Of a stretch of 64,000 nucleotides of DNA, positions 24,929-29,907 are shown one piece after another. The stretch covers positions 156,001 to 220,000 of the forward strand of contig NZ_JBBNAD010000005.1 of NCBI RefSeq assembly GCF_037996765.1, in the 5' to 3' direction. The translations under genes and the position numbers were made by a program. Source of the stretch: Bdellovibrio sp. GT3 (lineage in GTDB: Bacteria > Bdellovibrionota > Bdellovibrionia > Bdellovibrionales > Bdellovibrionaceae). A model generated the notes under the pieces. The model was not told where the DNA came from. It searched no databases and was given only the letters and a program-made list of their open reading frames with translations. Numbering within the stretch: the stretch's first letter is position 1; the number at the start of each line of letters is the position of its first letter.

Positions 24929-26830
24929 TTGAAAACGACATCATTGAAGGCGGGACTGATCGCACTTGTCCTCGCTCTATCTGTTCCCGTTACATCTCAC
25001 GCAGGTTTGGATATTTTTGAACCCGGCAAAAAAGTGGTCGAAAAAATCCGCAAACAAATCGCCAAACAAGATATCGGTGCCACCATCGGTCTTGGTGGTG
25101 ACATCATTGACGGTCTTCATGTTTCCCTGAAATACAAAGCCAAGTCCGAACCTTCTTACCTGGATGGTTATTACACTCGCCTGGATAAGTATGTACTAAC
25201 TTCTGAATTAAACGTCGGTGATCTTATCGATGGCAGCGACACTCCATTTGGTTTGGAAGTGGAAAATGGCACGGAAGTCTATTTTGCCCGCCAATTTAAA
25301 ACACAAGGCGATTCACTTAAAGCGATTCCATACTCGATCAAACAAATTCCTTTCACCGCTCAAAAGGCAGTTAAAAACCTGAAGGTCGGTGACTTCGTTG
25401 CCCTTCAAGGGAAATTGAACATCGTGTTCTCGGTTGGCGGGGCTACAGACCTGAATCCAACCATCGAGTTGGGTGGCTCCACGCATGTGTTTATGGCTGG
25501 CGATTTCATGATCCACTTGTATCGCATGGCGGATGATAAAATCCGCGTGAAGTTGATCACGATGAGACGTCGTGGTGTCGGTGCCAGTGCCAGCATCGAC
25601 TACCTTGGTAAGTTGAAAGTTGTGGGCTTAAGAGTTATTGATCGCAAACTTGAGCGTTGGGTTGACTTGAAGCCAGCGTCTTTGAACTTCGGCAAAAGCA
25701 TGAATGACGTTTTCATGTTGGATTACGTTTTCGATCTTAAAAATGCCCAGGCCGCGACTGCATTCAACAACTTCATGAACAAGAAGTTGAAATTCAAAAA
25801 TCTTAAAGTTATCGACCCAACAGCTTCCCGTCCTGAGTTGCAGAATGAATTGATGACGGACATGTCTGAAGTTGAAGACATGTACATGGCAGATCATAAC
25901 TTGCCAGCTGATCAACGCCGCATTGATCGCGTCTTCAAAGGATCCAATACATCTGTCGATGTCATGTCCCGCTACAAACTTTCCATGAGCATCCTGCGCC
26001 TGGAAGCGAACACAATGTACTCCCAAAACAAACTGCAAAACTTCGACTCTAATAACGTTGAAAAGCAATACATTCTGGACACGTACCAAAAATCAGCTCA
26101 GTCCAAAATCTTTTACGGCATCTGGGGTAACAAAATCACTGAAGGTGATCACATTATCTTTAACTCCAATCCGAAATGGACACCGGGTTCTTTTGTGACG
26201 GCTTCCCACTTCTATGAAGCCCGCATGAGAAACGTTTCCAAAAAAGACTTCGGTAAAATGCAAAACCGCACAATGGAAATTCTGCCAGAGTGGATCTATC
26301 GCCAAATCGACTGGAAGCGCTGGGATTTTTCAGATGGCGATATCGTGAATGGTTATTTCCGTCACCAGGTGTGCATCCATCCTGAAGCCTACGACGCCCT
26401 TCCGAACTACACGGCAAGCCAGATTAAAAAAATGTTCCTGGCTTACCTGAAATCAGAAGATCAGGATCTGGATCAGTTAAGACGCAACAAGATTGCGAAG
26501 ATCTCTGAAAACTTCTCGTACCTGCTGCAACCGTATATGACGGACCAGGCTCGCTATGAGGCTTTCAGAAATCTGCAAAAGATCGCCATGTGGCGTGATC
26601 ACGGTGCTTATTTTGTACTGACTCTTTTGCCGGACAATCAGTTTGAACAACTGGTTACATACGAAATGACTTTCACAGGCCGTAAAGTGGATCAGATCAA
26701 TTTCCGCTTCGGTAACTTTGAAAAGCAGCAATTGTACCAATCCCTGCTGTATATCCAAAACCTGATCAACGATCGTTCCTTCGATTTGCGTCTGGTAACA
26801 GACTCCACCGGTGGAAGCAAAAAACCATAA
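24929..26830 (+). CDS. Large secreted protein of unknown function
   Basis: A 633-residue protein with a signal peptide (about residues 1-26, ending SHA before GLDIFEPG). The start is TTG with AGGAG ten bases upstream. The first half is beta-rich with alternating hydrophobics (about 40-250); the second half is helical with many charged residues. It has only one or two cysteines, no lipobox, no membrane segment and no enzyme motif I recognise. A signal peptide with a beta-rich body suits a periplasmic or outer-membrane-associated protein. It stands alone between its own promoter candidate and a strong terminator, which suggests independent regulation. Confidence 0.7.
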   Translation: MKTTSLKAGLIALVLALSVPVTSHAGLDIFEPGKKVVEKIRKQIAKQDIGATIGLGGDIIDGLHVSLKYKAKSEPSYLDGYYTRLDKYVLTSELNVGDLIDGSDTPFGLEVENGTEVYFARQFKTQGDSLKAIPYSIKQIPFTAQKAVKNLKVGDFVALQGKLNIVFSVGGATDLNPTIELGGSTHVFMAGDFMIHLYRMADDKIRVKLITMRRRGVGASASIDYLGKLKVVGLRVIDRKLERWVDLKPASLNFGKSMNDVFMLDYVFDLKNAQAATAFNNFMNKKLKFKNLKVIDPTASRPELQNELMTDMSEVEDMYMADHNLPADQRRIDRVFKGSNTSVDVMSRYKLSMSILRLEANTMYSQNKLQNFDSNNVEKQYILDTYQKSAQSKIFYGIWGNKITEGDHIIFNSNPKWTPGSFVTASHFYEARMRNVSKKDFGKMQNRTMEILPEWIYRQIDWKRWDFSDGDIVNGYFRHQVCIHPEAYDALPNYTASQIKKMFLAYLKSEDQDLDQLRRNKIAKISENFSYLLQPYMTDQARYEAFRNLQKIAMWRDHGAYFVLTLLPDNQFEQLVTYEMTFTGRKVDQINFRFGNFEKQQLYQSLLYIQNLINDRSFDLRLVTDSTGGSKKP

Positions 26831-26838
26831 TGACTTTG

Positions 26839-26868
26839 AAGGGCCTTGCAAAAGGGCCCTTTTTTTTT
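26839..26868 (+). terminator. Rho-independent terminator
   Basis: AAGGGCC (26839-26845) pairs with GGCCCTT (26855-26861) and is followed by a long T run. It begins eight bases past the stop of the secreted-protein gene. The rest of the gap to dacB (252 bases in all) holds a TATATT -10-like hexamer at 27016-27021 without a convincing -35 box. Confidence 0.88.
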
Positions 26869-27082
26869 GCCCTTTGTGTGACTGTTTCCTGCCCTTATCC
26901 TGGCGAATTCCGTCGTCATTTCGCAAAATTGTAATAAATACCCAGCGAATTCCCAAAAGCACCGGGAAAACATTGTCCTGACCTCAAAACATTCTTTAGA
27001 TTAAAGGATTTTAAGTATATTAATCCCACCCTAGTTGCTAAGTAGACCAGCTCACTTACATCAAGAACCAAGGGGAACAAGA

Positions 27083-28381
27083 GTGTCATTCTTGAAAACA
27101 CAATTCGTAATAGCTGCTCTGGTCGTGGGATTCACGACATCTGCTTCTGCTAAAGTATATCTGAATTCTGCCTGCACGATGAAAGCCAAATCGCAAAGCA
27201 TCGAAGGCAACGGCAGTAAAGACGAAAAGTTCCCACTGGCTTCTATTTCAAAACTTGTGACTTCCCTTTGGGCCATCGAAACTCTGGGTCCCAAATATCG
27301 CTTCACCACTAAAATTCATCTGACCAAAAAGGCTGACGGTCTTTTTGATATGCACATTGAAGGCGGTAAAGACCCTATCTTCGGTCGCAGCGTGGGTTAC
27401 TTTGTTCTGGCGCAAATGGCGATGCGCGAGTTGAATATCAAACAAGTCGACACCCTGACCTTTGACGAAAACTTTTTGATGGAGTGGAACGTCGAGGAGC
27501 CGACAGCGATTGCTGGCGACACGAAATACTATCCTGATCTTGCCGCCCAAACAGCGCATGTAAAACATGAGCTGGAAAACGGCTTCATCACGCCCATCGC
27601 TGACAACTCCTACAAGTATGTTCGCGCCATGGCGAAGTCTGTGGAAGTTCTGTTGCCGGAATCCAAGCCCAACATCAAATTCAACAAAGTTGAATTCCTG
27701 CCAAAACAGGAATTCAAACAAGACACTCAAACTGTTTCCTTCACCTATCGTTCAGCTCCGTTGCATAAAATCATCAAGAACATGAACAACAAGTCCAACA
27801 ACTACATTGCAGATCATCTGTACTGGAATCTGGGCGACACTCCGGCATTTAACGAATTCCTGCAAAAGAATCTGAAAATGGACAACCGGGATCTACAGTT
27901 CAATCTGGGCTCCGGGAACAATGCTGACTATATTTCCAAGAAAAAATACGACTACAACGAAGGCACTTGTTCTGCGATGATCAAAGTTTTGATTTGTCTG
28001 AACGAAGTTTTGGCGACTCAGGGATTGGCACTAACTGATGTCATGGCAGTTGCTGGAACTGACACTGAATCCACAGTTGCGAAATACGGTGGCGCTATGG
28101 AAGGTGCAATGGTTGGCAAAACCGGCACCGTTGATAAAGCGAAAACACTTGCCGGCACGATCTCCACCGGTAACGGGACAATTTACTTTGTGATTCTTAT
28201 GCACAAGGATTCTTCCGGCGAAAATGGTTCAGCGGCCAATGCTATCAAAAATCGTATCCGTGCCTTGTTCACCATCAACAATGGCTCCAAAAAAATTAAC
28301 TACTCCGAATTCAGCCCCCTTCCGTTCGACAAGGGATCAGCCTTGGTTTTGGAATACGGGCCTAAATTAGGAATGTACTAA
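27083..28381 (+). CDS. dacB: D-alanyl-D-alanine carboxypeptidase/endopeptidase, S13 (PBP4) family
   Basis: A periplasmic peptidoglycan peptidase of 432 residues. A signal peptide ends near TSASA-KVYL (about 23). The three penicillin-binding motifs are present: SISK (Ser54, Lys57), SNN in NKSNNYIADHL, and KTGT in VGKTGTVDKA. S13 enzymes remove the terminal D-Ala and cut D-Ala-mDAP cross-links. Bdellovibrio is known to use S13-family enzymes to loosen the prey wall during entry, so either self or prey wall could be the substrate. GTG 27083 follows AGGGGA; an earlier in-frame start would add 16 residues in front of the signal peptide and is unlikely. The ankyrin gene overlaps by one base (TAATG). 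Confidence 0.9.
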   Translation: MSFLKTQFVIAALVVGFTTSASAKVYLNSACTMKAKSQSIEGNGSKDEKFPLASISKLVTSLWAIETLGPKYRFTTKIHLTKKADGLFDMHIEGGKDPIFGRSVGYFVLAQMAMRELNIKQVDTLTFDENFLMEWNVEEPTAIAGDTKYYPDLAAQTAHVKHELENGFITPIADNSYKYVRAMAKSVEVLLPESKPNIKFNKVEFLPKQEFKQDTQTVSFTYRSAPLHKIIKNMNNKSNNYIADHLYWNLGDTPAFNEFLQKNLKMDNRDLQFNLGSGNNADYISKKKYDYNEGTCSAMIKVLICLNEVLATQGLALTDVMAVAGTDTESTVAKYGGAMEGAMVGKTGTVDKAKTLAGTISTGNGTIYFVILMHKDSSGENGSAANAIKNRIRALFTINNGSKKINYSEFSPLPFDKGSALVLEYGPKLGMY

Positions 28382-29046
28382 TGATCAATGTGGCGATCTG
28401 GATTTTTTATGTTCTTGTGGCTCTCTTCACGGCGTTTGGACCAATCACGGCCCGCGGTGGCGAGTCGGCTGAGAACATCAACAGAGCCATTGAGCTGCAG
28501 AAAAATTCCGAAGTTAAAAAGCATGTGCAGGACAAATCTTTTGATCCTGCCAAAGGCGACGAAGACGGCATCACTCCACTGATGGCTGCCGCAATGAATG
28601 GCAACCTTCAGGCATTAAAATTGATTCTTAAATTGAAGCCAAACCTGGAACAACAAAATAATTTGGGCGACACCGCCTTGGCTATGGCTGTTTCTAATGA
28701 TCAAGATGCAGCGGCAAAGTTGTTGATCGAATCCGGTGCGAAGGTTGATATTCCGGTTCTTTCCGAAAACAAAGACACCCTGTTGATCACCGCTGCCAAA
28801 AGCAGCGAGAAGACCACGCAGCTTATTCTTAAAAAAGACAAAAAGACCATCGATCAGAAAAACGCCCTGGGCAACACCGCCCTGATTGAGTCAATCCTTG
28901 CCGGATACACCGACATCGCAACAATGTTGGTTAAAAATGGCGCTGACGTTTCTGTAAAAAACAACGACGGCAAGAATGCTTTGGACCTTTCCAAGGAACT
29001 AAAAAACCAGACACTCACATCTCTTTTATCCAAGAAATCCAAATAA
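28381..29046 (+). CDS. Secreted ankyrin-repeat protein
   Basis: A 221-residue protein. An N-terminal hydrophobic stretch (about 3-24) is a signal peptide or anchor. Ankyrin repeats follow from about residue 60 to the end, with units such as DGITPLMAAAMNGNLQALKLIL, LGDTALAMAVSNDQDAAAKLLIESGA, and LGNTALIESILAGYTDIATMLVKNGADV. Ankyrins bind other proteins. Start/stop overlap with dacB suggests it is made with the peptidase and may act with it in the periplasm, as a partner, inhibitor or protective factor. That role is inferred from gene order only. Confidence 0.82.
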   Translation: MINVAIWIFYVLVALFTAFGPITARGGESAENINRAIELQKNSEVKKHVQDKSFDPAKGDEDGITPLMAAAMNGNLQALKLILKLKPNLEQQNNLGDTALAMAVSNDQDAAAKLLIESGAKVDIPVLSENKDTLLITAAKSSEKTTQLILKKDKKTIDQKNALGNTALIESILAGYTDIATMLVKNGADVSVKNNDGKNALDLSKELKNQTLTSLLSKKSK

Positions 29047-29088: not shown

Positions 29089-29135
29089 AAGTACCTTTTT
29101 ATGGTACTTTATATGTCTTGATGAAGAAAAGTACC
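29089..29135. promoter_or_regulatory. Operator candidate: three AAGTACC sites upstream of the XRE-type gene
   Basis: AAGTACC at 29089-29095 and its inverse GGTACTT at 29103-29109 form a seven-base inverted repeat with a seven-base spacer. A third copy in direct orientation lies at 29129-29135, 40 bases from the first (about four helical turns). They sit 41-87 bases ahead of a helix-turn-helix regulator gene, the usual place for an autoregulatory operator. Binding is not shown. Confidence 0.5.
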
Positions 29136-29175
29136 CGATTCATAGTTGGCTCAACAATCCAACAAAGGAGTCATT

Positions 29176-29907
29176 ATGGAATTCACAAACGTATCTGAAG
29201 CACTAAGAAATGTTCTTAAGTCCCGCAGTATCACTTACAAAGACCTGGCGGATAAACTCAAAATGTCCGAATCAGGGGTTAAAAAACTTCTGACTGGCGA
29301 TGATATCTCATTCAACAAGCTGAATGCCATTCTGTCATTCCTGGATATCAGCCTTAAGGATCTGATCTCCTTGAAGAGTCGCGGATTCGCAAAGCTGACA
29401 GACAAGCAGGAAAACTTTTTGCTCAAGCATCCCCAGCATTTCAATTTCTTTGTTCAACTTCATCATCATTTAATGAGCCTTGAATTGGTAAAAGCCGACA
29501 ATCACAAGCTATCGAAAGCCAAAATGAATCAGTACGTCGACGACCTTGTGAAAATTGAAGTGTTGGAATTCGTGGATGGAAAACTGACATCCTCATTGAA
29601 GGACGGATTTACAATGAGTGATAAACTCACTGAGTCTTTTCAAAAAAGAAGTTATGGCGCTGTTATCGATTCTTTGAAGAACGCCGACGAGTACAAAAAA
29701 ACACCTTGGCTGTATGAAGGATTCGGACAGTTCGCTTTAACTCACAAATCAGCCCTGGAATTCAGAATGGCGCTGGAAGATCTACTTAAAGAGTTCTCAA
29801 AAAGAACGGATCGCGAAAAGAAGATCCACAAATCCAGCGACCTGGTTCACTGCGCAGCCCTGCTGGTGAATGCAGATCTGAAAGTGAAGGATATTTTCCC
29901 GATTTAA
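29176..29907 (+). CDS. XRE-type transcriptional regulator with an unknown C-terminal domain
   Basis: A 243-residue protein. Residues 5-60 are a Cro/CI-type helix-turn-helix (VLKSRSITYKDLADKLKMSESGVKKLLTG region). From about 75 to 240 is a helical domain without a motif I know; it has a short His run (QLHHHLM) and a winged-helix-like KIEVLEFVDGKL segment. The domain plan is common among Bdellovibrio regulators that may sense a small ligand. AAAGGAG sits six bases before the ATG at 29176; a start ten codons earlier is less likely. The AAGTACC sites upstream suggest it controls itself. Confidence 0.78.
   Translation: MEFTNVSEALRNVLKSRSITYKDLADKLKMSESGVKKLLTGDDISFNKLNAILSFLDISLKDLISLKSRGFAKLTDKQENFLLKHPQHFNFFVQLHHHLMSLELVKADNHKLSKAKMNQYVDDLVKIEVLEFVDGKLTSSLKDGFTMSDKLTESFQKRSYGAVIDSLKNADEYKKTPWLYEGFGQFALTHKSALEFRMALEDLLKEFSKRTDREKKIHKSSDLVHCAALLVNADLKVKDIFPI

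Follow-up and report, generated by a model that had tools for sequence, protein, structure and literature searches.

The bd3459-bd3460 locus in another Bdellovibrio species: an S13 peptidase gene coupled to the gene of a probable ankyrin inhibitor

The 64,000-nt stretch of Bdellovibrio sp. GT3 analyzed here (the window; contig NZ_JBBNAD010000005.1, positions 156,001 to 220,000) contains an S13 peptidase gene followed directly by an ankyrin-repeat gene. A sequence-only reading had named the ankyrin protein Bd3460 as a precedent and had called the pair "the same design". The precedent was apt, and the pair matches it in sequence and predicted fold as well as in the order of the genes and their place on the chromosome, but the wording understated the likeness: the pair is the counterpart of the bd3459-bd3460 locus itself, in another Bdellovibrio species. 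Given both genes, intact motifs, matching predicted folds, the shared site, tight coupling and parallel descent, we are confident that it also operates by the self-protection mechanism of Bdellovibrio bacteriovorus HD100. The system as such is already known from that strain; its member in the window has a single enzyme, and the evidence points to a turnover of entire cassettes at one and the same site.

The S13 peptidase gene (27083..28381, + strand; counterpart of Bd3459) starts with GTG at 27083, ends with TAA at 28379-28381 and encodes 432 amino acids (Peptidase_S13, 2e-19, Pfam). The ankyrin gene (28381..29046, + strand; counterpart of Bd3460) starts with ATG at 28381, has a stop ending at 29046 and encodes 221 amino acids (Ank_2, 1e-22, Pfam). 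The earlier claim that the dacB stop and the ankyrin start have a base in common was confirmed by reading the sequence; it is base 28381 (+ strand). Shine-Dalgarno-like sequences were read 7 nt upstream of the enzyme GTG (AAGGGG, 27070..27075, +) and, within the 3' end of the enzyme gene, 8 nt upstream of the ankyrin ATG (AGGA, 28369..28372, +). When the ankyrin start was taken as the first in-frame ATG, GTG or TTG, its distance from the end of the enzyme gene was between -4 and +15 nt in 36/36 S13-ankyrin pairs from 35 genomes, and the coupling was therefore judged not to be due to chance. The overlap itself is not conserved; it was exactly one base in 6 of the 36 pairs and was dropped as a special signal. 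A terminator-like hairpin of 10 pairs followed by a T run (26838..26862, +) was found between the upstream gene and the cassette; since the scan returned 5 such sites against 3.0 expected, little above chance, this hairpin rests on its own strength. The scan for promoters returned no more than chance would give (3 sites against 3.3 expected). Co-transcription of the two window genes would be expected from HD100, in which bd3459 and bd3460 are co-transcribed and the enzymes form 1:1 complexes with Bd3460 (PMC4686830).

As shown by alignment, the SxxK, SxN and KTG motifs of an S13 DD-endopeptidase are all intact in the window enzyme: SISK at S54-K57 (27242..27253, +), SNN at S238-N240 (27794..27802, +) and KTG at K346-G348 (28118..28126, +), with S54, S56 and K57 invariant among 14 aligned sequences. 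A signal peptide of 23 amino acids (27083..27151, +), ending in ASA before K24, was predicted, the putative cleavage site being placed by the alignment of K24 with K38 of Bd3459. When the enzyme was compared with PDB sequences, Bd3459 (E 2e-116) and Bd0816 (E 5e-111) were matched far above E. coli PBP4 (2.8e-6). AlphaFold2 models were built from alignments of the window proteins and their relatives in the named genome collection, and the enzyme model (13 sequences) reached a mean pLDDT of 88.8. In the PDB fold search, its best 8 matches were all Bd3459 or Bd0816 chains at 45-47% identity; against Bd3459, the TM scores were 0.89/0.95 at 1.7 A, and against E. coli PBP4 they were 0.54-0.58. Membership of the S13 family would also fit a housekeeping DacB of the predator, with the ankyrin protein regulating the predator's own wall growth. 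We regard this as far-fetched, and the assignment was abandoned as contradicted by the tree: the same genome holds a separate S13 gene (C5:1127920-1129146; E 6.9e-86, Pfam) that groups with the HD100 housekeeping copy, and a tree of 67 S13 proteins separates the window enzyme from ten housekeeping-type copies by a 100/100 split. By both the tree split and the fold ranking, the window enzyme is closer to Bd3459 and Bd0816 than to housekeeping DacB, and by analogy with HD100 it would be a DD-endopeptidase that cuts the 3-4 cross-links of prey peptidoglycan.

The ankyrin protein matched Bd3460 with an E-value of 1.5e-39, second among the PDB sequences to a 910-residue ankyrin construct (1.3e-40). 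The construct tops the E-value list because its many repeats sum, none exceeding 34.7 bits, and the best single stretch was that of Bd3460 (138.9 bits). The AlphaFold2 model (7 sequences; mean pLDDT 87.8) is built of six helix pairs, one for each of six repeats; a further helix lies at 154-158, the position of the crossover helix K154-N158 of Bd3460 (PMC4686830). The best 6 matches in the PDB fold search were all Bd3460 chains (44-45% identity); because other ankyrins likewise attain TM scores of 0.7-0.8 against the model, the identification is carried by the fold ranking together with the features specific to Bd3460. Alignment with Bd3460, which had been proposed as a check, bore out the likeness at 44% identity over the predicted fold. 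The six-residue AR3:AR4 loop (V126-K131; 28756..28773, +) occupies the place of V126-G131 in Bd3460, whose numbering was checked against the residues named in PMC4686830. At the few AR4-AR5 cleft residues named there, the only ones at which interface conservation was scored, D132 and A139 are kept, M136 is replaced by I and Q140 by K.

The ankyrin protein had been called secreted, and secretion is plausible for it and for the enzyme alike. The hydrophobic N-terminus of the ankyrin protein (28381..28452, +) is a probable export signal, but it has no K or R ahead of the hydrophobic stretch, unlike Bd3460, and this is common to the four genomes of its clade. At least one K or R stands ahead of that stretch in 24 of 26 other ankyrins by a crude script rule. 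Judged on these residues, export of the ankyrin protein to the periplasm is likely but not certain.

To place the pair on the chromosome, stretches of 20 kb were compared. The proteins of genome G004 match the PDB sequences of Bd3459, Bd0816 and Bd3460 throughout the aligned stretch except at 2, 1 and 1 residues, which sit at engineered or construct-start positions, and we take G004 to be HD100. Of 20 stretches, 18 represented the site of the window pair and two the Bd0816 site. All 18 genus members compared have the enzyme-ankyrin pair at the same site (in G010 the enzyme is present, although masked in the map by a longer frame on the opposite strand). A DEAD-box helicase and a polyA polymerase lay downstream of the pair in 18/18, and ferrochelatase lay upstream in 17/18, being absent from the G025 stretch; two further haem-type genes precede ferrochelatase in most stretches. 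The window flanks correspond by Pfam to Radical_SAM, Amino_oxidase, Ferrochelatase, DEAD, Abhydrolase_1 and PolyA_pol, and the seven flanking window proteins scanned with Pfam comprise a hydrolase and enzymes for haem, RNA and signalling, with no secretion parts among them. The shared flanks and site therefore make the window pair the positional counterpart of bd3459-bd3460.

The prey-entry mechanism is known for HD100 and is carried over to the window pair by orthology. In the solved HD100 complexes described in PMC4686830, the helical face of the ankyrin repeats blocks the cleft of the enzyme and the loops point toward its rear. A complex with the ankyrin loops at the SISK active site, which had been suggested as a check, thus concerns the wrong face, because it is the helical face that covers the active-site cleft. 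By analogy with HD100, the window enzyme would pass through the predator periplasm and then enter the prey, where it would cut the 3-4 peptide cross-links, and the prey would round up. The ankyrin protein would remain in the predator periplasm with its helical face over the enzyme cleft, and the predator's own wall would thereby be spared during prey entry. Export route, binding, inhibition and the effect on predation are all expected of the window pair on the HD100 model; a point against close carry-over is that the window and HD100 proteins are only 44-48% identical. A different role, very unlikely in our judgment, would be that of an escort: the ankyrin protein would be no inhibitor and would instead assist folding of the enzyme or its hand-over to the export machinery. 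The tight coupling in 36/36 pairs and the parallel descent would be expected of an escort no less than of an inhibitor, but Bd3460 inhibits Bd3459 fully in vitro (PMC4686830). Moreover, HD100 predators lacking bd3460 round themselves while still rounding prey (PMC4686830), and the enzyme must therefore work and be exported there without the ankyrin protein.

The precedent in the earlier reading had two target enzymes. A counterpart of Bd3459 was present, but none of Bd0816 was found in sequence searches of the window genome (rated 99.97% complete), and the expectation of one elsewhere in that genome was dropped. Two S13 genes were found: the window enzyme and the housekeeping-type copy. As one predatory S13 enzyme was found, the inhibitor probably has one target only. 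In the trees, the Bd3459 copies of G004, G007, G010 and G011 have as their sisters the Bd0816 copies of these genomes, and the clade of these 8 rows had a support of 98/99 in the tree of 67 S13 proteins and 94/95 in a smaller set. It thus looks, from this sister placement, as if the second enzyme arose by duplication within the HD100 lineage. Among the genomes searched, a type I pair (see below for the types) accompanied by a second type I enzyme occurred in the four HD100-lineage genomes only; the single-copy state of the window matches that of the other type I genomes outside this lineage, of which G012 additionally carries a pair of type II. Across the genus, the genomes searched usually have one enzyme and one inhibitor.

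Within the family, 66 genomes were surveyed, and 36 pairs were collected from 35 of them. Adjacent S13-ankyrin pairs were found in at least 23 of 24 genus genomes and at least 12 of 42 other family genomes, counts that are lower bounds since some weak or fragmentary S13 places were left out and remote ankyrins may be missed. The sole genus member without a pair, G013, also has no close relative of the flanking helicase (best 35% identity), and the missing pair may reflect a gap in its assembly. In several other genera, diverged S13 genes were found with no recognised ankyrin next to them. In genus g17 (L046, L044, L049, L072-L076), such genes often occur several per genome. In G035, an ankyrin gene with a stretch 43% identical to that of the window (L147 1713-2360) lies ~150 kb from a diverged S13 gene. 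According to PMC4686830 and PMC5941755, periplasmic predators have the pair or the ankyrin, and epibiotic predators lack it.

The genus enzymes at the site fell into two deep groups, each with its own ankyrins: type I (twelve genomes besides the window and HD100) and type II (eight genomes). The AR3:AR4 loop was at full length in 15/15 type I ankyrins and one residue shorter in 9/9 of type II; in the ankyrin trees, type II was not recovered as one clade. G012 (L054 2761-6900) carries both types as tandem cassettes, type II then type I, which are mutually 23% (enzyme) and 32% (ankyrin) identical, each being closest to a different type. Over 24 pairs, the enzyme and ankyrin distances were correlated with an r of 0.88, or 0.86 with species distance removed, and the correlation was equalled in 0 of 2000 label permutations; within the types, the partial correlations were 0.82 and 0.86. 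In the genomes searched, the enzyme and its inhibitor descend together, apparently even where the pair itself is replaced.

When RpoB, RpoC and DnaE were used for a tree, the type I genomes of the window clade (G000, G014, G017 and G019) grouped with the type II genome G020 at 100/100 support; the larger set around them, itself supported at 100/100, has as its other members G016, G025 and G026, which without exception carry type II. G023 (type I) and G024 (type II) form a second mixed sister pair (100/98). The window and G020 are 96% identical over common marker columns; their cassettes are 26% identical over both enzyme and ankyrin by global alignment and 33-37% over local matching stretches. 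On the left, the segment that differs is bounded by the upstream gene (24929..26830, +), which encodes a predicted exported protein of 633 amino acids with no Pfam match and is 67% identical between the window and G020. This gene is the neighbour of the cassette in five genomes, those of the window clade and G020, and sits elsewhere in other genus genomes where it was found. With matches in 40/66 family genomes, mostly apart from the cassette, and with the terminator-like hairpin in between, it was dropped as a part of the system. On the right, DNA similarity with G020 resumes at 29089..29363 (+), ~43 nt past the ankyrin stop, and the flanking helicase is 88% identical. The flanks are similar on both sides, so the differing segment is essentially the two genes; G020 is a draft of 510 contigs, with both flanks and the cassette on one contig. 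The start region of an HTH gene past the cassette (29146-29907) is similar in DNA to G020, and no protein counterpart of this gene was found in 19 other syntenic stretches.

These observations may be read as the work of an exchangeable cassette of enzyme and inhibitor, an ancestor of the window clade having swapped type II for type I, the left breakpoint falling between the upstream gene and the enzyme and the right one just past the ankyrin stop; we put the chances of this at even. Such a cassette would move whole, presumably because a cell carrying the enzyme but no matching ankyrin would be harmed. Identical flanks around different cassettes would likewise be left by reciprocal loss, with no exchange at all, if both types descended from an ancestral tandem of the genus and each lineage lost one. 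This is a real possibility, if somewhat short of an even chance, and the tandem of type II and type I at the site in G012 fits it. Reciprocal loss expects the type I of the window clade to lie outside all other type I, but holding the other type I sequences together cost 17.5 lnL for the enzyme (p-AU 0.0352; 0.0422 without G012a) and 10.1 lnL for the ankyrin (p-AU 0.0445; 0.0409 without G012a). The rejection is a weak one, since the hypothesis was framed after the trees had been seen and the window clade is on a long branch. The place of the window clade within type I also shifts between trees: it stands with G012a (99/89) in the 67-protein enzyme tree, inside an unresolved 10-row clade in the smaller enzyme set, and, in the ankyrin trees, close to G018 and G023 at low support.

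Among the papers listed on Bd3460, on Bd3459 with Bd0816, on ankyrin self-protection in Bdellovibrio and on its ankyrin immunity and comparative genomics since 2016, no title concerned two cassette types or their exchange; a prior description may exist elsewhere. The authors of the HD100 study anticipated that more predator genomes would reveal how Bd3460 and its two targets have co-evolved (PMC4686830). The genomes compared here give a first answer, in that a second type I enzyme was found only in the HD100 lineage. Matched and mismatched pairs would provide a direct test of specificity, for which the two pairs of G012 are natural material.

The closest known system is Bd3459-Bd3460 of HD100 (PDB 5CEA, 5CEB, 5CEC, 5CED, 3V39; PMC4686830), with which the window pair has in common the gene order, site and folds, the catalytic motifs, the six ankyrin repeats, the long AR3:AR4 loop and the crossover helix, at 46% (enzyme) and 44% (ankyrin) identity over the predicted folds. 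It differs from HD100 in the one-base overlap, which corresponds to a 7-nt gap between bd3459 and bd3460, in the gene immediately upstream, in the ankyrin N-terminus devoid of K or R, and in the number of target enzymes found, one versus two. The second HD100 target, Bd0816 (PDB 5CER), has the same fold as the window enzyme at 48% identity. The S13 family and fold are also common to E. coli PBP4/DacB (PDB 2EX2) and to the Bdellovibrio housekeeping S13 enzyme, named Bd3244 in PMC4686830. PBP4 is set apart by its low TM scores against the window enzyme, and the housekeeping copies by the 100/100 split. A harmful wall enzyme adjoining a periplasmic inhibitor is also a general arrangement of the effector-immunity pairs of bacterial competition. 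The window pair resembles these in that a wall enzyme and its probable inhibitor are co-inherited, with two diverged versions at one site; unlike them, by analogy with HD100, it would serve prey entry.
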